DNA from: Rubrivivax sp.
GTDB taxonomy: Bacteria; Pseudomonadota; Gammaproteobacteria; Burkholderiales; Burkholderiaceae_C
Assembly: GCA_027483705.1 (NCBI GenBank)
Contig: JAIXTY010000049.1
Span: 1 to 32,383, forward strand
Reading direction: 5' to 3'
DNA: 32,383 nucleotides
The notes below the pieces were generated by a model. The model saw only the letters and a list, made by a program, of their open reading frames with translations, ran no database searches and had not been told where the DNA came from. The translations under genes were made by a program, and so were the position numbers. This document shows positions 18,305-25,118 of this stretch, one piece after another. How positions within the stretch are numbered: the first letter of the stretch is position 1; the number at the start of each line of letters is the position of its first letter.

Positions 18305-19247
18305 CGACCCCTCCCTGCTGCACGCCGCGGCCGCCGCGCTCGCCGGCGCGCAGCGCTACGAGCGCGGCGCACTCTACGTCGTCGCCACGCCCATCGGCAA
18401 CCTGGCCGACATCTCGCTGCGCGCGCTGCACCTGCTGTCGCTGGTGGACGCCGTGGCCTGCGAGGACACGCGCGTCGGCGGTGCGCTGCTGCAGGCCTAC
18501 GGGCTGGGCCGGCCGGGGCTGGCGCTGGTGGCGCTGCACGCGCACAACGAGGCCGGCGCCAGCGCCGCCGTGCTGGCGCGGCTGGCCGCCGGCGAGCGCG
18601 TGGCGCTCATCAGCGACGCCGGCACGCCGGCCGTCAGCGACCCCGGTGCGCGCGTCGTGGCCGCCGCCGCCGCGGCCGGGCACCCTGTCGTGCCGCTGCC
18701 CGGCGCCAGCAGCACGCTGGCCGCGCTGTGCGCGGCCGGTGACAGCCTCGGCCACGGCTTCGTGTTCGCCGGCTTCCTGCCGGCCAAGGGCGCCGAGCGC
18801 GACGCCGCACTGGCCGCCGTGCAGGCCGAGCCGCGCACGCAGGTGCTGTTCGAGGCGCCGCACCGCATCAAGGCGCTGCTGGGGGCGCTGGCGGCTGCGG
18901 TGCCGGCACGACCTCTGACGGTGGCGCGCGAACTGACCAAGCAGTTCGAGAGCATCGCCACGCACCCCGCCGCCACGTGGCCGGACCGGCTGGCCGGCCA
19001 GCCGCATGGCGAGCGCGGCGAGTTCGTGCTGGTGCTGCACGCGCTGCCGCCAGCGGCCGCGGCGGCCGACGCGCTGCCGGCCTCGGCCCTGCACGTGCTG
19101 GACACGCTGCTGGCCGAGCTGCCACTGAAGCAGGCGGCCGCGCTGGCCGCCACCATCACCGGGCTGCCGCGCAAGCATCTGTACGCCGAAGCCCTGCGCC
19201 GGCGGGCCGACACCGGCGACGGCGACGCCGGCACCGACGAGGCCTGA
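18258..19247 (+). CDS. rsmI: 16S rRNA (cytidine1402-2'-O)-methyltransferase RsmI
   Basis: RsmI uses S-adenosylmethionine to methylate the ribose of C1402 in 16S rRNA, at the decoding centre. The tetrapyrrole-methylase-fold motifs are clear: [19 protein letters not shown] (about residues 39-57), [31 protein letters not shown] (about 119-131), and [12 protein letters not shown]. The protein is about 40 residues longer than E. coli RsmI, mostly in an Ala-rich and acidic C-terminus. The start is uncertain: TTG 18258 is used here, TTG 18294 is an alternative, and both lie inside the divergent yraN start region. A GATAAT at 18177-18182 may be the -10 element, without a clear -35. The EamA gene follows after 6 bases. 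Confidence 0.92.
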
Positions 19248-19253
19248 GCCGCG

Positions 19254-20195
19254 GTGGTCGCCACGCTCGCCCGCCGCGTGCGCGCCCAGCCGGCGGCGGT
19301 GCGGGCCCTGCTGTGGGCCGCCACCGCGGGCCTGGTGTTCACGGTGCTCAACGCGCTGATGCGCCTGCTGGCGCTGCAGCTCGACCCGATGCAGACGCAG
19401 TTCCTGCGCTACCTGTTCGGTTTTGCGGTGTTGCTGCCCTGGCTCGTGCGCCACGGCCCGGCGGCCTACCGGCCGCAGAGCCCGGCCGGGCAGTTCTGGC
19501 GCGGCGCCGTGCACACGCTGGGGCTGGTGCTGTGGTTCGCGGCGCTGCCGCACATCCCGCTGGCCGACACCACGGCCATCGGCTTCACGACGCCGATCTT
19601 CATCATGCTCGGCGCCTGGTGGTTCTTGAAGGAGCCGATGCGCTGGGAGCGCTGGGCGGCCACGGCCGTGGGCTTTGCCGGGGTGCTGGTGGTGCTGGGG
19701 CCGGCGCTCTGGGCTGCGGCCGGGGGCCGCGGCAGCGGCGGTGCGCACCTGCTGATGCTGGCCTCGGCGCCGGTGTTCGCGGCCTCGTTCCTGATCACCA
19801 AGGTGCTCACGCGCACCGAGTCCACCGGCGTCATCGTGTTCTGGCAGGCGCTCACCGTCACGCTGTTCAGCCTGCCGCTGGCGCTGCCCGGCTGGCAGTG
19901 GCCCACGGCCTGGCAGTGGGCGGGCTTTGCGCTGTGCGGCGCGCTGGGCAGCACGGGGCACTACTGCCTGACGCGCAGCTTCAGCGGAGCCGACATCTCG
20001 GCCACGCAGTCGCTGAAGTTCCTGGAGCTGCTGTGGTCGGCGCTGCTGGGCTTGGCGCTGTTCGCCGACGTGCCCACGGCGACCACGCTGGCCGGCGGCG
20101 CGCTGATCACCGCCGCCACGATCTGGGCCGCGCGGCGCGAGGCCACGCGCCCGGGCGCCGCCCGGCTGCCCGCAGGGCCGAGGGCCGACTCCTAG
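19254..20195 (+). CDS. EamA/DMT-family inner-membrane transporter
   Basis: A 313-residue transporter of the drug/metabolite superfamily with ten predicted membrane helices in two EamA halves. The first half has NALMRLLALQLDPMQTQFLRYLFG and the loop FTTPIFIMLGAWWFLKEPM; the second contains SFSGADISATQSLKFLELLW, a pattern common in proteobacterial EamA proteins of unknown substrate. The GTG at 19254 follows the rsmI stop by 6 bases, so it is likely read from the rsmI transcript. The protein is not a close duplicate of the EamA protein at 3292-4179. The tail after the last helix is short and basic. The substrate and direction are unknown. Confidence 0.87.
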   Translation: MVATLARRVRAQPAAVRALLWAATAGLVFTVLNALMRLLALQLDPMQTQFLRYLFGFAVLLPWLVRHGPAAYRPQSPAGQFWRGAVHTLGLVLWFAALPHIPLADTTAIGFTTPIFIMLGAWWFLKEPMRWERWAATAVGFAGVLVVLGPALWAAAGGRGSGGAHLLMLASAPVFAASFLITKVLTRTESTGVIVFWQALTVTLFSLPLALPGWQWPTAWQWAGFALCGALGSTGHYCLTRSFSGADISATQSLKFLELLWSALLGLALFADVPTATTLAGGALITAATIWAARREATRPGAARLPAGPRADS

Positions 20196-20198
20196 AAT
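20193..20198 (+). promoter_or_regulatory. Candidate -10 element before tldD
   Basis: TAGAAT overlaps the stop codon of the EamA gene and lies 70 bases before the tldD ATG. It matches 5 of 6 consensus positions, but no good -35 hexamer is seen at the right spacing, so it is a weak call. Confidence 0.25.
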
Positions 20199-20210
20199 GG
20201 CCCGCAGCCC

Positions 20211-20246
20211 TTTGGCTGCCGGTTTGGCTGCCGTTCTGGCTGCCCT
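20211..20246 (+). repeat. 12-bp direct repeat, three copies, in tldD leader
   Basis: Three head-to-tail 12-base units, TTTGGCTGCCGG, TTTGGCTGCCGT and TCTGGCTGCCCT, fill the gap 21 bases before tldD. The first two differ by one base. They sit in the untranslated leader. Confidence 0.7.
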
Positions 20247-20267
20247 TGTCGTTGAAAGGCCCCGCCG

Positions 20268-21746
20268 ATGATCTCCCGCGAACCCACCCTCGAACGCCTG
20301 GCCATCGCGCAGCAGCTGATGCTGGAGCCCTTCGGCCTGAGCGACGCGACGCTGTCGCAGGCGCTGGCGCTGATCGGCGAGCACCGCGTCGACGACGCCG
20401 ACCTGTACTTCCAGACCACGCGCCACGAGGGCTGGAGCCTCGAGGAAGGCATCGTCAAGAGCGGCAGCTTCAGCATCGACCAGGGCGTGGGCGTGCGCGC
20501 CGTGGCCGGCGAGAAGACGGCCTTCGCGTACAGCGACGACCTCTCGGCCGAGGCGCTGATGGACGCCGCGCGCACCGTGCGCACCATCGCCGCCGCCGGG
20601 CAGCAGCGCCGCGTCAAGGTGGCCGGCCGGGCCGCGAAGGTGGCGAAGAGCCGGCTGCTGTACGCGCCGATGGATCCCATCGGCACGCTCGACAGCACGC
20701 AGAAGGTGGCGCTGCTCGAGAAGGTCGAGAAGCTCGCCCGCGCCAAGGACCCGCGTGTCGTGCAGGTGATGGCCAGCGTCGGCGCCGAGTACGACGTGGT
20801 GCTGGTGGCGCGGGCCGACGGCACGCGCGCCGCCGACGTGCGCCCGCTGGTGCGCCTGAACGTGACCGTGATCGCCGCGCAGACCGTGAACGGCGAGCTG
20901 CGGCGCGAGGTCGGCAGCGGCGGCGGCGGCGGCCGCTTTGGCCTGGGCTACTTCACCGACGCCGTGATCGCGCAGTACGTCGACCACGCCGTCGGCGCCG
21001 CGCTCACCAACCTCGACAGCCGCCCGGCCCCGGCCGGCGAGATGACCGTCGTGCTCGGCCCCGGCTGGCCCGGCGTGCTGCTGCACGAGGCCGTGGGCCA
21101 CGGCCTCGAAGGCGACTTCAACCGCAAGGGCAGCAGCACCTTCAGCGGCCGCCTGGGCCAGCGCGTGGCCGCCAAGGGCGTGACCGTGCTCGACGACGGC
21201 ACCTTGCCGGACCGCCGCGGCAGCCTGAACGTCGACGACGAGGGCCACGCCAGCCAGCGCAACGTGCTCATCGAGGACGGCATCCTCAAGGGCTACATCC
21301 AGGACAGCCTCAACGCGCGCCTGATGGGCGTCAAGCCCACCGGCAACGGCCGCCGCGAGAGCTACGCGCACCTGCCGATGCCGCGCATGACGAACACCTA
21401 CATGCTGGCCGGCGACAAGACCAAGGACGAGATCGTCGCCAGCATCAAGCGGGGTCTCTACGCCACCAACTTCGGCGGCGGCCAGGTCGACATCACCAGC
21501 GGCAAGTTCGTGTTCTCGGCCAGCGAGGCCTTCTGGGTCGAGAACGGCAAGATCCTCTACCCGGTGAAGGGAGCCACGCTCATCGGCAACGGCCCCGAGG
21601 CCATGACGCGCGTCAGCATGATCGGCAACGACCTCGAGCTCGACACCGGCGTCGGCGTCTGCGGCAAGGAAGGCCAGAGCGTGCCGGTGGGCGTGGGCCA
21701 GCCGACGCTGCGCATCGAGCGCCTCACGGTGGGCGGTACGGCATGA
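20268..21746 (+). CDS. tldD: Metalloprotease TldD
   Basis: A 492-residue subunit of the TldD/TldE (PmbA) heterodimeric zinc protease, which degrades unfolded peptides and matures some ribosomal peptides such as microcins. The zinc site motif HEAVGH lies at residues 273-278 (His273, His278, Glu274), followed by GLEGDFNRKGSSTFSGRLG. The C-terminal domain has the family GGGQVDITSGKFVFSASEA and ends with the conserved GVGQPTLRIERLTVGG. Length is slightly above E. coli TldD (481). The partner tldE/pmbA is not in the window and is usually unlinked. ATG 20268 is preceded by a short leader with 12-bp repeats. The stop overlaps the threonine ammonia-lyase start by 4 bases. Confidence 0.97.
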   Translation: MISREPTLERLAIAQQLMLEPFGLSDATLSQALALIGEHRVDDADLYFQTTRHEGWSLEEGIVKSGSFSIDQGVGVRAVAGEKTAFAYSDDLSAEALMDAARTVRTIAAAGQQRRVKVAGRAAKVAKSRLLYAPMDPIGTLDSTQKVALLEKVEKLARAKDPRVVQVMASVGAEYDVVLVARADGTRAADVRPLVRLNVTVIAAQTVNGELRREVGSGGGGGRFGLGYFTDAVIAQYVDHAVGAALTNLDSRPAPAGEMTVVLGPGWPGVLLHEAVGHGLEGDFNRKGSSTFSGRLGQRVAAKGVTVLDDGTLPDRRGSLNVDDEGHASQRNVLIEDGILKGYIQDSLNARLMGVKPTGNGRRESYAHLPMPRMTNTYMLAGDKTKDEIVASIKRGLYATNFGGGQVDITSGKFVFSASEAFWVENGKILYPVKGATLIGNGPEAMTRVSMIGNDLELDTGVGVCGKEGQSVPVGVGQPTLRIERLTVGGTA

Positions 21747-22948
21747 CGGTGGCGGTCGAGGACATCCGAGCCGCCGCCCAGCGGCTGCACGGCCATGTGC
21801 TCGACACGCCCTGCGTCGAGAGCCTGACGCTCGGGCAGATCACCGGCTGCCGCGTCTTCCTGAAGTTCGAGAACCTGCAGTTCACGGCCTCGTTCAAGGA
21901 GCGCGGCGCGCTGAACAAGCTGGCCACGCTGGTGGCGGGCGACACGCCGCCGAAGGGCGTGATCGCCGCCAGCGCCGGCAACCACGCCCAGGGCGTGGCG
22001 CATCACGCCGCGCGGCTGGGCCTGCGGGCGGTGATCGTGATGCCGCAGCACACGCCGATGGTGAAGGTGGAGCGCACGCGCGGCTTCGGCGCCGAGGTGG
22101 TGCTGCACGGCGAGACCTTTGACGCCGCGCGCGAGCGCGCGTTGCAGCTGGCCGCCGAGCAGGGCCTGACCTTCGTGCACCCCTTTGACGACGCCGCCGT
22201 CATCGCCGGCCAGGGCACCATCGGCCTGGAGATGCTGGCGGCGCAGCCCGATCTCGACACGCTGGTCATCGCGGTGGGCGGCGGCGGGCTCATCAGCGGC
22301 ATCGCCACGGCGGTGCGCTCGATCAAGCCCGGCATCCGCATCGTCGGCGTGCAGACCTCGCGCTTTCCGGCGATGGTCAACGCCGTCAAGGGCACGGCCC
22401 ACCCGCAGGGCGCCAGCACCATCGCCGAGGGCATCGCCGTGGGCCAGCCGGGGCAGCTGACGCAGGCGCTGATCCGCGAGCGCGTGGACGACCTGCTGCT
22501 GGTGGACGAAGGCGATATCGAGCAGGCCGTGCTGATGCTGCTGGAGATCGAGAAGACCGTCGTCGAAGGCGCCGGCGCCGCCGGCCTGGCCGCGCTGCTG
22601 CGCCACCGCGAGGCCTTTGCCGGCCGCCGCGTGGGCCTGGTGCTGTGCGGCGGCAACATCGACCCGCTGCTGCTGGCCAGCATCATCGAGCGCGGCATGG
22701 TGCGCGCCGGCCGCCTGGCGCGCATCCGCGTTGCGGCGCGCGACACGCCCGGCGTGCTGGCCCGCATCACCGCCGTCGTGGCCGAGGCCGGCGCCAACAT
22801 CGACGAGGTGCACCACCAGCGCGCCTTCAGCACGCTGAGTGCGCAGAACGTCGAGGTCGAGCTCGTGCTGCAGACGCGCAACCGCGAGCATGTCGACGAG
22901 GTGCTGGCGCGGCTGGCCGCGGCCGGCTTCACGACCCCCGACCACTGA
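21743..22948 (+). CDS. Threonine ammonia-lyase with ACT domain
   Basis: A 401-residue PLP enzyme that deaminates L-threonine to 2-oxobutanoate, the first step toward isoleucine or a threonine breakdown route. The PLP lysine is Lys52 in ASFKERGALNKL; the phosphate loop SAGNHAQGVA and the glycine loop VGGGGLISGIA are intact. The last 75 residues (from about 325) form one ACT domain, RIRVAARDTPGVLARITAVV, of the kind in the shorter, 400-residue ilvA/tdcB-like enzymes; the long biosynthetic IlvA has two such domains. Serine can also be a substrate in this family. The ATG overlaps the tldD stop (ATGA), an unusual pairing. A stem-loop follows at 22954-22977. Confidence 0.93.
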   Translation: MTVAVEDIRAAAQRLHGHVLDTPCVESLTLGQITGCRVFLKFENLQFTASFKERGALNKLATLVAGDTPPKGVIAASAGNHAQGVAHHAARLGLRAVIVMPQHTPMVKVERTRGFGAEVVLHGETFDAARERALQLAAEQGLTFVHPFDDAAVIAGQGTIGLEMLAAQPDLDTLVIAVGGGGLISGIATAVRSIKPGIRIVGVQTSRFPAMVNAVKGTAHPQGASTIAEGIAVGQPGQLTQALIRERVDDLLLVDEGDIEQAVLMLLEIEKTVVEGAGAAGLAALLRHREAFAGRRVGLVLCGGNIDPLLLASIIERGMVRAGRLARIRVAARDTPGVLARITAVVAEAGANIDEVHHQRAFSTLSAQNVEVELVLQTRNREHVDEVLARLAAAGFTTPDH

Positions 22949-23107: not shown

Positions 23108-23785
23108 ATGCGTGAACAGCAAGTCATCCGCACCGTGTCCGGCAGCGTGGCCGTGGCGGCGATCGCCGCCGCCCTGGCGCTGTCCGTGGGCTCGGCCCGC
23201 GCCGGCGAGTTCTACGTCAAGGGCGGCGTGCCCGGGGTCGTCGTCGGCTGGGCGCAGCCGATGAACACCTACTTCGGCCTGCGCCTGGACGTCGCCTCGG
23301 TGGGCACGCTCAACGAGCGCCGCACCGAGGACGGCATCGCCTACGACGCCACGTTCAAGGGCGATCGCACGGCGCTGCTGGCCGACTGGTTCCCGTTCGG
23401 CGGCCGCTTCCGCTTCACGGGCGGGATCACCAGCAGCAAGTACTCGCTGGACCTGCTGGCCACGGGCGCCGGCGGCACCATCACCGTCGGCCGGACCACC
23501 TACACCACCACGGCGGCCGATCGCTTCAGCGTGCAGGTCAAGATGCCCAGCTCGATGCCCTACGTGGGCCTGGGCTGGGGGCACCAGGCCGACAGCGGCC
23601 TGCGCTTCTCGTTCGACATCGGCGCCAAGCTGGGCAAGGCGAACCTGAACTACTCGCTCAGCGGCCCTTGGACGACCCGCGTGTCGCAGGCCGACATCGA
23701 CGCCGAACTCGCGGAGCTGCGCGACGGCGTGGGCAAGATCAAGTTCGTGCCGCAGCTCACGCTGGGCCTGGGCTACAGCTTCTGA
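23108..23785 (+). CDS. Predicted outer-membrane beta-barrel protein
   Basis: A 225-residue exported protein that I cannot assign to a named family. The signal peptide covers about residues 1-32 with cleavage after ARA. The mature part has alternating polar and hydrophobic stretches, many Gly and aromatic residues, and ends in LGLGYSF; a C-terminal Phe is the usual recognition signal for the BAM complex. This suggests a small barrel of about eight strands, loosely similar to OmpW/OprF-type or acyl-carrier channel proteins, with no function inferred. The ATG at 23108 gives a good signal peptide; a TTG at 23084 is less likely. The 18-bp palindrome upstream might control it. Its stop is 35 bases before the aroG leader peptide. 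Confidence 0.75.
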   Translation: MREQQVIRTVSGSVAVAAIAAALALSVGSARAGEFYVKGGVPGVVVGWAQPMNTYFGLRLDVASVGTLNERRTEDGIAYDATFKGDRTALLADWFPFGGRFRFTGGITSSKYSLDLLATGAGGTITVGRTTYTTTAADRFSVQVKMPSSMPYVGLGWGHQADSGLRFSFDIGAKLGKANLNYSLSGPWTTRVSQADIDAELAELRDGVGKIKFVPQLTLGLGYSF

Positions 23786-23807
23786 TGGCGCCGCAAGAGG
23801 CCCGTGC

Positions 23808-23813
23808 TACAGT
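23808..23813 (+). promoter_or_regulatory. Candidate -10 element for the aroG leader
   Basis: TACAGT ends 7 bases before the leader ATG, which would place the transcript start at the A of that ATG, a leaderless message. No clear -35 is seen about 17 bases upstream. The nearest purine-rich AAGAGG (23795-23800) is too far from the ATG to act as a Shine-Dalgarno, which also fits leaderless translation. Confidence 0.35.
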
Positions 23814-23820
23814 CGGCGCC

Positions 23821-23895
23821 ATGCGTTCCACGCCGTTCTACTTTACGTACTTTTGGTTCTCGCACCGCACGGCGGCTGGAGAGGCAAAGGCGTAA
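23821..23895 (+). CDS. Aromatic-rich leader peptide of aroG
   Basis: A 24-codon ORF, ATG to TAA, whose residues 6-13 read FYFTYFWF: four Phe, two Tyr and one Trp in eight codons (23836-23859). This is the signature of an attenuation leader, whose translation reports the charging of tRNAs for the amino acids that the downstream operon makes. The next gene is DAHP synthase, the entry step to all three aromatic amino acids, and a rho-independent terminator lies in between. Two of the Phe codons are TTT, rare in DNA this rich in GC, which may favour slow decoding. The remaining residues 14-24 contain no aromatics. The peptide itself is probably not functional. Confidence 0.88.
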   Translation: MRSTPFYFTYFWFSHRTAAGEAKA

Positions 23896-23952
23896 GCGCA
23901 GAGCAGCAAACGCAAACCCCCCAAGAACCGCCGGCAGCCCCGGCGGTTTTTT
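23831..23952 (+). promoter_or_regulatory. Ribosome-mediated transcription attenuator of aroG
   Basis: Four segments can be drawn. Segment 1, CGCCGT (23831-23836), pairs with segment 2, ACGGCG (23869-23874), enclosing the aromatic codons. Segment 2 shifted by one, CGGCGG (23870-23875), pairs with segment 3, CCGCCG (23928-23933). Segment 3 is also the 5' arm of the terminator (3:4). A ribosome stalled on Phe, Tyr or Trp codons would block 1:2, let 2:3 form and so prevent termination; with charged tRNAs the terminator forms. The alternative stems are only 6 bp by eye, so the exact pairings are inference; the terminator and leader are seen directly. Confidence 0.75.
23926..23952 (+). terminator. 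Rho-independent terminator within the aroG leader
   Basis: AACCGCCGG (23926-23934), a 5-base loop CAGCC, then CCGGCGGTT (23940-23948), continuing into a run of six T (23947-23952). A perfect 9-bp stem with a T-run is the clearest intrinsic terminator in the window. It sits 30 bases after the leader stop and 41 bases before the aroG GTG, so it must be read through for aroG expression. Confidence 0.9.
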
Positions 23953-23993
23953 GTTGCCCGCCGAGTGCCCAAGGCCCGAACGAGGAAGCCCCC

Positions 23994-25118
23994 GTGAGCC
24001 CGAAGACCGCGAACCCGACGACCGACGAGCGCCTGGCCCTGTCGGAGCGCACCAGCCAGACCGACGACCAGCGCATCCGCGACGTCACGCCGCTGCCGCC
24101 GCCCGAGCACCTGATCCGCTTCTTCCCGATCGCCGGCACGCCGGTGGAGGCGCTGGTGGGCGACACGCGCAAGCGCATCCGCCAGATCATGCAGGGCGAG
24201 GATGACCGGCTGCTCGTCATCGTCGGCCCCTGCAGCATCCACGACCCTGCCGCGGCGCTGGAGTACGCCCGCCGGCTCAAGGCCGAGCGCGAGCGCCACG
24301 CCGGCGAGCTGGAGGTGGTGATGCGCGTCTACTTCGAGAAGCCGCGCACCACCGTGGGCTGGAAGGGCCTGATCAACGACCCCTACCTCGACGAGAGCTA
24401 CCGCATCCACGAGGGCCTGCGCATCGCGCGGCAGCTGCTCGTGGACATCAACCGCGCGGGTGTGCCGGCGGGCAGCGAGTTCCTCGACGTCATCAGCCCG
24501 CAGTACATCGGCGACCTCATCGCCTGGGGCGCCATCGGCGCGCGCACCACCGAAAGCCAGGTGCACCGCGAGCTGGCCAGCGGCCTGAGTGCGCCGGTGG
24601 GCTTCAAGAACGGCACCGACGGCAACATCAAGATCGCCATCGACGCCATCCAGGCGGCGGCGCGCGGCCACCACTTCCTGTCGGTCCACAAGAACGGCCA
24701 GGTGGCCATCGTCGAGACCAAGGGCAACAAGGACTGCCACGTCATCCTGCGCGGCGGCAAGGCGCCCAACTACGACGCCGCCCACGTGGCCGCGGCCTGC
24801 GCCGAGATCGAGGCCGCCAAGCTGCCGTGCCGGCTGATGATCGACGCCAGCCATGCCAACAGCAGCAAGCAGCACCAGCGCCAGATCGACGTGATGCAGG
24901 ACGTCGGCGCGCAGCTCGCGGCGGGCAACCGCTGCATCTTCGGCGTCATGGTCGAGAGCCATCTCAACGGCGGGGCGCAGAAGTTCACCCCGGGCAAGGA
25001 CGATCCCTCGAAGCTGAGCTACGGCCAGAGCATCACCGACGCCTGCATCGACTGGGCCGACACGACCCGGCTGCTGGACGGCCTGGCCCAGGCCGTGAAG
25101 GCGCGCCGGGCCGCCTGA
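23994..25118 (+). CDS. aroG: 3-deoxy-7-phosphoheptulonate (DAHP) synthase, class I
   Basis: A 374-residue type I DAHP synthase. It condenses phosphoenolpyruvate with erythrose 4-phosphate to DAHP, the first step of the shikimate pathway. Typical blocks are LLVIVGPCSIHDP (about residues 69-81), MRVYFEKPRTTVGWKGLINDP (key Arg and Lys near 110-120), SEFLDVISPQYIGDLIAWGAIGARTTESQ, VGFKNGTDGN, and IDASHANSSKQHQ near residue 283, containing the metal ligand His. Length fits AroF/G/H of E. coli; which aromatic amino acid inhibits it cannot be decided. The GTG at 23994 with GAGGAAG at 23982-23988 is a good start; upstream frame reads through the attenuator and is not coding. Expression is probably controlled by the attenuator above. 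Confidence 0.96.
   Translation: MSPKTANPTTDERLALSERTSQTDDQRIRDVTPLPPPEHLIRFFPIAGTPVEALVGDTRKRIRQIMQGEDDRLLVIVGPCSIHDPAAALEYARRLKAERERHAGELEVVMRVYFEKPRTTVGWKGLINDPYLDESYRIHEGLRIARQLLVDINRAGVPAGSEFLDVISPQYIGDLIAWGAIGARTTESQVHRELASGLSAPVGFKNGTDGNIKIAIDAIQAAARGHHFLSVHKNGQVAIVETKGNKDCHVILRGGKAPNYDAAHVAAACAEIEAAKLPCRLMIDASHANSSKQHQRQIDVMQDVGAQLAAGNRCIFGVMVESHLNGGAQKFTPGKDDPSKLSYGQSITDACIDWADTTRLLDGLAQAVKARRAA

Follow-up and report, generated by a model that had tools for sequence, protein, structure and literature searches.

A probable transcription attenuator with an aromatic-rich leader peptide precedes aroG in Rubrivivax and many of its relatives

Introduction

Attenuation of transcription is already a known mechanism, and the element described here, which lies directly upstream of aroG, is apparently an undescribed case of it. 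The Vibrio gene named aroA-I-alpha is presumably a class I DAHP synthase gene. A table of PMC1173090 lists, from a prediction website, putative attenuators upstream of aroA-I-alpha(Y) > tyrA in two Vibrio species. As with the aroG element, a class I DAHP synthase gene would follow the predicted attenuator. The Vibrio genes belong to an operon with tyrA, the passages on them give no leader peptide, and the comparison is one of description (PMC1173090).

In Corynebacterium glutamicum, the aroR leader upstream of aroF is reported to respond to Phe and not to Tyr (Neshat et al., 2014, as summarized in passages of a review, PMC11802643). It too is an attenuator in which a Phe-Tyr-Phe leader precedes a gene for DAHP synthase, but the host is an actinobacterium, the reported response to Phe and not Tyr sets it apart, and here again only descriptions are compared (passages of PMC11802643). 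The trpL leader of Sinorhizobium meliloti (rnTrpL) resembles the aroG element in being a leaderless mRNA that begins with AUG and is subject to ribosome-dependent attenuation, but its codons are for Trp and its target is trpE(G) (sections of PMC7298713 and PMC10117765). The Rfam family RF01859 (Phe_leader) covers the attenuators of pheA and pheS, which also combine a Phe-rich leader peptide, a terminator and an antiterminator. The aroG element differs from it in the gene controlled, in the mixture of Phe, Tyr and Trp codons and in sequence, and the window and five relatives do not match that family. In E. coli, the repressors TyrR and TrpR control the genes for DAHP synthase (sections of PMC5343134).

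In the passages found by full-text search of open-licence papers, an attenuator of aroG is nowhere described for Burkholderiales or their relatives. It should be noted that 82 short 5′UTRs of Burkholderia cenocepacia are given in the supplement of PMC5688073 and that an attenuator website stands behind PMC1173090; an earlier prediction may thus exist.

The aroG locus of the window

The window, the whole stretch of DNA analysed here, is 32,383 nt long and belongs to a Rubrivivax sp. assembly of 359 contigs that is 88% complete. Its features are collected in Table 1. The product of aroG matches TIGR00034 over the cut-off (531 bits, E 7.4e-160) and PF00793 (E 1.5e-96), and its start lies 42 nt past the T run of the terminator. 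By AroG, the nearest of the named loci, taken from the best 80 of at least 592, is in a Rubrivivax metagenome-assembled genome (locus L091, 90%). The 963-aa ORF with a protein kinase domain is convergent with aroG. The domain make-up of the long upstream ORF resembles, we assume, that of a threonine dehydratase.

Table 1. Coordinates of the proposed attenuator and of neighbouring features, in window positions
Feature	Position	Strand	Basis or remark
Long ORF	18977-22948	+	C-terminal part matches PALP and ACT domains
ORF upstream of the leader, 233 aa	23084-23785	+	No Pfam match
Extended -10 promoter element, TGC-TACAGT	23805..23813	+	TG in 30/31 and TA...T in 31/31 family loci
Leader ORF, MRSTPFYFTYFWFSHRTAAGEAKA, 24 codons and stop	23821..23895	+	Read from the sequence; leaders in relatives
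Regulatory codons, Phe-Tyr-Phe-Thr-Tyr-Phe-Trp-Phe (FYFTYFWF)	23836..23859	+	7 aromatic residues in 8
Leader hairpin P1 (segment 1:2), UCUC/GAGA and an inner CCGC/GCGG stem with part of segment 2	23857..23883	+
Segment 2, CGGCGG, 5′ antiterminator strand, pairs with 23928-23933	23870..23875	+	Compensating changes in relatives
Segment 3, AACCGCCGG, common to antiterminator and terminator	23926..23934	+
Segment 4 and T run, CCGGCGGTTTTTT, 3′ arm of the terminator	23940..23952	+
Shine-Dalgarno-like GAGGAAG of aroG	23982..23988	+	Read from the sequence
aroG, class I (AroFGH) DAHP synthase, 374 aa, GTG start	23994..25118	+	TIGR00034, PF00793
ORF with a protein kinase domain, 963 aa	25126-28017	-	Pkinase E 4.4e-35

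The eight regulatory codons are the densest such stretch of the whole window in any of the six frames. They hold seven aromatic residues, against five in the runner-up at a separate place; in 100 windows simulated by a first-order Markov model the maximum was three (36 windows), four (61) or five (3). The count was made over whole frames, since the leader frame is open upstream and an ORF scan that takes the first start codon only misses the leader.

The terminator consists of AACCGCCGG (23926-23934), a CAGCC loop and CCGGCGGTT (23940-23948), with 9/9 base pairs formed, and is followed by a run of six T (23947-23952), two of which lie within the stem. CGGCGG at 23870-23875 can pair over 6 bp with CCGCCG at 23928-23933, and this pairing excludes the terminator, which shares the strand 23928-23933. 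Predicted energies are -11.1 kcal/mol for P1, -15.7 for the terminator and -9.2 for the antiterminator stem alone. A simple terminator scan of the window did not list the hairpin at 23926-23952. The region 23812-23955 folds more stably than its shuffles (z -2.58, 1/200 as low), but the part 23860-23955 does not (z -0.81, 35/200 as low). The preliminary description had proposed an attenuator from these elements, namely a 24-residue ORF with seven aromatic residues in eight codons, a perfect 9-bp terminator with six T, mutually exclusive 6-bp pairings and a DAHP synthase gene directly downstream, and all four are confirmed by the analysis.

The predicted folds depend on what part of the RNA is available. 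When the RNA is freed from 23869 and segment 4 is missing, the predicted fold is the antiterminator. RNA from 23857 that lacks both a ribosome and segment 4 likewise favours the antiterminator over P1 as its fold of lowest energy, which in these predictions counts against a simple equilibrium picture. Both folds computed with segment 4 present contain the terminator. Together these results imply that the switch, as modelled, must rest on timing.

Neither the window as a whole nor four further loci matched any family of Rfam 15. A permissive scan of 23700-24050 returned only sub-threshold hits to sroD, RNAI and H19_2, which we take as chance. RF01859 had no match in the window at its gathering score, none up to E 10 in 23700-24050, and none in L001, L039, L054, L066, L187 and L191. 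NCBIfam and Pfam held no family for the leader of the window, those of five relatives or one leuA leader.

The element is kept upstream of aroG in relatives

The family of the window was sampled with 120 genomes from 119 genera; 119 have a DAHP synthase match, over the cut-off in 118. The 30 best-scoring DAHP synthase loci of this sample and the window's own (the 31 family loci, alignment A1) all have a leader with five to eight aromatic residues in nine codons and a consensus of roughly FYFxYFWFS..GGRE. A1 shows the extended -10 element (TGTGCTACATT), the leader, TTTTGGTTCTC, CCGGCGGACGAGAGG and the strands of the terminator. Outside the aromatic cluster the peptide differs from family to family. 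Three of the family loci (L003, L004 and L030) have an ORF that stops immediately behind GGCGGA and still retain GAGAGG past the stop codon, a sign of constraint on the RNA.

Two covariance models were used, R1 built from the A1 loci and R2 from 60 loci. R1 gave 47 matches in 200 genomes of the order. In each of 30 loci retrieved from this search, the window included, the AroG alignment begins 116-298 nt downstream of where the match begins, and every leader has five to eight aromatic residues in nine codons. Up to E 10, the only other R1 match in the window's own genome is the opposite strand of the same terminator (E 3.3).

R2 matches 118/120 family genomes, the two missed being G051, which has no DAHP synthase match, and G070, which has a weaker one only (E 2.4e-48). 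There are 121 family matches, and for 114 of them a DAHP synthase match is listed 58-193 nt downstream in the same orientation. Among the other seven, L075 and L076 have AroG in the DNA examined, L074 reaches the contig end with its leader intact, and two precede leuA (L071 and L072). The match in G107 was left out of the inspection of loci, and that in L070, beside a porin-like gene (named by eye), is false. The preliminary description could not tell whether the element is described for this genus; its occurrence in 118/120 family genomes sampled shows that it is not peculiar to one genus.

DAHP synthase matches listed without an element upstream number 36/150; 27 of them are 1029-1035 nt long, eight 1041 and one 1047. 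The shorter matches, of 1029-1035 nt, look like a second paralogue.

At the level of the order, R2 at E<=0.01 matches 52/200 genomes and leaves 148/200 without a match. All 52 matches were inspected, and AroG follows in 50. The two weakest (L077 and L078, E 0.0065 and 0.0099) have no AroG downstream and are false. At least four aromatic residues in nine codons are found in 48 of the 50 loci; the exceptions are L081, with three, and L086, whose leader start precedes the matched stretch. A search of 276 genomes of the class found four matches outside the order, three in family f60 and one in f65, all before AroG, and three others that belong to the window's family. Within f60, 16/59 genomes match, three of which were inspected.

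At the level of the phylum, 39/249 genomes match; 20 were inspected, and 18 have AroG downstream, the remaining two being Phe leaders of pheA and pheS. One of the 18 is from f60, and the other 17 are all the matches from a different class (families f229, f232 and f236), which is probably, by inference, Alphaproteobacteria. Each of these 17 leaders contains Phe, Tyr and Trp. The loci of the different class (L187-L195, L198 and L200-L206) have the make-up of aroG attenuators, mostly with leaders of the FWYF or YWYF type.

Named genomes, for which the best 80 of at least 592 AroG loci were kept, have an R2 match at E<=0.01 upstream on the AroG strand in 61/80. The genera and species matched include Rubrivivax, Variovorax, Acidovorax, Hydrogenophaga, Polaromonas, Comamonas, Burkholderia, Paraburkholderia, Caballeronia, Cupriavidus lacunae, Massilia, Janthinobacterium, Xanthomonas bonasiae and Dyella. 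The 19/80 loci without an R2 match, again among the best 80 of at least 592, include three of Polynucleobacter, two of Cupriavidus, and Thauera, Azoarcus, Rhodocyclus, Chromobacterium and Enterovibrio; some of the 19 may be paralogues, and one of the 19 (L121) offers only 22 nt before the AroG match. In sum, the range of the element takes in its own family and others of the same order, two further families of the class that lie outside that order, and a different class of the phylum.

Covariation and geometry of the helices

RNAalifold, given A1 (31 loci) and no structure, recovers P1 and the terminator. Pairing in the same loci is 88.5% for the antiterminator (five cells changed on both sides), 94.2% for P1 (two) and 96.8% for the terminator (zero). 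The 60-locus alignment (A3) was fitted to a model that contained P1 and the terminator but not the antiterminator. In it, cells changed on both sides number 14 for the antiterminator (3.9 in shuffles) and 15 for the terminator (3.1 in shuffles), both comparisons ignoring kinship. The compensating changes of the antiterminator are C-G to U-A in nine and G-C to A-U in five. Some measures gave no signal: for the antiterminator, the count of pairs changed on both sides and the count of pair types are not above controls in the 31- and 60-locus tests, for the terminator the pair types are not above shuffle controls in the 60 loci, and four of six slid versions of P1 reached or surpassed its covariation score in the family (0.061).

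Swapping strands between loci provided another measure. For segments 2 and 3, own pairs score 17.94 vs. 16.94 for swapped pairs in 117 loci, with 0/500 shuffles as high (kinship ignored); these are the loci, out of 120, that gave a segment 3. The common combinations are CCGGCGG/CCGCCGG (33), CTGGCGG/CCGCCAG (21) and CCGACGG/CCGTCGG (4). For P1, a loose test with unrestricted stems and G-U pairs showed no signal in the 117 loci (65/200 as high) and gave 4/200 as high in 48 loci, nearly all from other families (one, L155, is of the window's family). A tight test, run after the loose one and limited to Watson-Crick pairs near segment 2, gave 9.63 for own vs. 9.00 for swapped strands in the 117 loci and 9.58 vs. 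8.40 in the 48, with 0/1000 as high in each (kinship ignored). Variants of the P1 strands in relatives are TCTC/GAGA, TTCC/GGAA, TCCC/GGGA, TCCA/TGGA and CTAC/GTAG. The TCTC strand is retained despite a difference in reading: it encodes Phe-Ser in the window's family but His-Leu in Burkholderia-type leaders.

A stalled ribosome that covers segment 1 yet not segment 2 needs, by its footprint, a certain gap between the codons and segment 2. In the 117 loci, the distance from the end of the last aromatic codon to the core of segment 2 has a median of 11 nt (10-90% range, 8-14), as such a ribosome would require. The commonest gaps are 9, 11, 12, 14 and 8 nt, which means that the reading frame relative to segment 2 differs between loci. 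The stop codon of the leader lies 1-29 nt past segment 2 in these loci. By its footprint, the rear edge of a ribosome on the stop codon would fall close to segment 2, and masking of segment 2 by it is therefore doubtful.

A probably leaderless start

The TACAGT of the window (23808-23813) ends 7 nt before the ATG of the leader. A TANNNT is found 6-9 nt before the start in 31/31 family loci (7 nt in 18, 8 nt in 11), the choice of start having been aided by the -10 element in L018 and L022. As a control, ATG triplets sampled randomly in the same loci, leaders not excluded, have a TANNNT at the same spacing in 10/816 cases. None of the 31 family loci has a Shine-Dalgarno-like 4-mer in the 16 nt before the leader start, and 28/31 have a Shine-Dalgarno-like 5-mer 25-110 nt before the AroG match. 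The TGnTA motif is also reported ahead of mapped leaderless mRNAs of Bradyrhizobium (parts of PMC4842269). Within the window's own genome, a scan with one strict -10-to-ATG pattern had the aroG leader as its sole match. Judged from these sequences, the leader in the window's family is probably on a leaderless transcript that starts at or near 23821.

The 31 family loci show no conspicuous -35 box at the usual distance. A G 27 nt (20/31) and an A 24 nt (17/31) before the first base of the -10 element are moderately conserved.

The preliminary description had guessed that the leader may be leaderless. The guess fits the window's own family, with the -10 element in 31/31 and a Shine-Dalgarno in 0/31 loci, but it does not extend to Burkholderia-type leaders, which have no -10 element at the leaderless spacing; the leaderless trait is thus not universal.

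Discussion

We are highly confident that the element is a ribosome-mediated transcription attenuator of aroG. This reading is based on the ORF, the helices with their compensating changes, the spacing and the linkage to aroG in many genomes. The locus has a leader ORF with codons for end products, an intrinsic terminator between leader and gene, and an antiterminator exclusive with it; hairpin 1:2 overlaps the regulatory codons, and these codons are at stalling distance from segment 2. The preliminary description, which had read the locus as an attenuator, had named a covariance search and alignment of relatives as the check, and its reading is supported: the aromatic codons and segments 1-4, and with them P1, the antiterminator and the terminator, are conserved before aroG in many genomes.

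Where transcription starts, that ribosomes stall, in which direction aroG responds and which amino acids are sensed, we infer as follows. RNA polymerase would start at the leader AUG or within a base or two of it, and the nascent RNA would consequently be translated from its 5′ end without a Shine-Dalgarno. When charged tRNA-Phe (and Tyr and Trp) is scarce, the ribosome would stall on the aromatic codons, most effectively at the last ones, Tyr-Phe-Trp-Phe (23848-23859). The stalled ribosome would cover segment 1 and block P1. The freed segment 2 could then capture segment 3 before segment 4 is made; no terminator would form, and aroG would be transcribed. With the aromatic tRNAs charged, the ribosome would reach the stop codon and leave. 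P1 or the moving ribosome would keep segment 2 away, the terminator of segments 3 and 4 would form, and transcription would end about 130 nt after its start. In this way, the aromatic-rich leader very probably lets the cell gauge the supply of Phe, Tyr and Trp through ribosome stalling.

Which of the three matters most is less clear. In 60 leaders, Phe is present in 60, Tyr in 59 and Trp in 47, the last being also the number with all three; the codon totals are 262 Phe, 106 Tyr and 51 Trp. Phe is the constant element of the leaders. That the attenuator senses mainly Phe (with Tyr), Trp being a passenger or minor, is on these counts a serious though tentative alternative, and the Phe-Tyr-Phe leader AroR of C. 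glutamicum is reported to answer to Phe limitation and not to Tyr availability (passages of PMC11802643). Against it, all three residues occur in each of the 17 leaders of the other class, which favours three-way sensing, and the Trp of the window adjoins segment 1, where stalling should matter most. The preliminary description would have the leader report on all three aromatic tRNAs at once. The three kinds of codon in the window's leader agree with this, but Trp is absent from 13/60 leaders; three-way sensing is possible on the codon content, and equal sensing of all three is unproven. The position of the codons should count as well.

It is improbable, in our estimate, that attenuation is only part of the function and that the peptide or the terminated RNA also acts in trans, as products of the trp attenuator do in Sinorhizobium. 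A leaderless, independently terminated RNA of about 130 nt would have the anatomy of rnTrpL/peTrpL (sections of PMC7298713). Against it stand the peptide's variation between families outside the aromatic cluster and the nucleotides kept past the stop codon in three family loci, which fit RNA pairing. A broader proposal is that the leaderless attenuator is an OR gate for the charging of tRNA-Phe, -Tyr and -Trp, an old RNA family across three large proteobacterial groups, with the ~130-nt RNA active also in trans; we consider it speculative and unlikely.

Leader peptides that regulate the translation of a downstream gene exist, and the helices might govern access to the aroG start. Such translational control is very improbable here, as the 60 aligned loci retain a G+C-rich hairpin with a T run behind it and the window's aroG start lies 42 nt past that run. 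The notion that the stem-loop is an ordinary terminator of the upstream ORF, with the aromatic ORF incidental, draws on that ORF ending on the same strand about 140 nt before the hairpin, but it can be discounted almost entirely: besides the window's own two loci the ORF has a match in only one of 141 loci (L091, 81%), the element stays with aroG in other neighborhoods, and strands within the leader ORF change together with the terminator strand.

If the attenuator reading is true, it would give a mechanism by which many bacteria besides E. coli control the committed step in making aromatic amino acids, and it would account for the aromatic-rich small ORFs before aroG. RNA annotation would gain a widespread attenuator family that is leaderless in part of its range. 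The mixture of codons also poses a question: does one leader integrate three amino acid signals, with the position of the codons weighting each?

Related leaders before other genes

R2 also cross-matches leaders of other genes. L196 (before pheA) and L197 (before pheS) carry Phe leaders, and both match the Rfam Phe_leader family. In two relatives (G028 and G105), leaders with Leu runs, MNFNFSSTLLLLLPANGQQFFCI (L071:1058-1204) and MNRISLALILLLPPGRSW (L072), precede leuA. They have the same extended -10 element at the leaderless spacing. Like the aroG element, they place a hairpin and a T run before a biosynthetic gene, but with Leu codons and leuA in place of aromatic codons and aroG. From their sequences, they are perhaps a sister leaderless attenuator.
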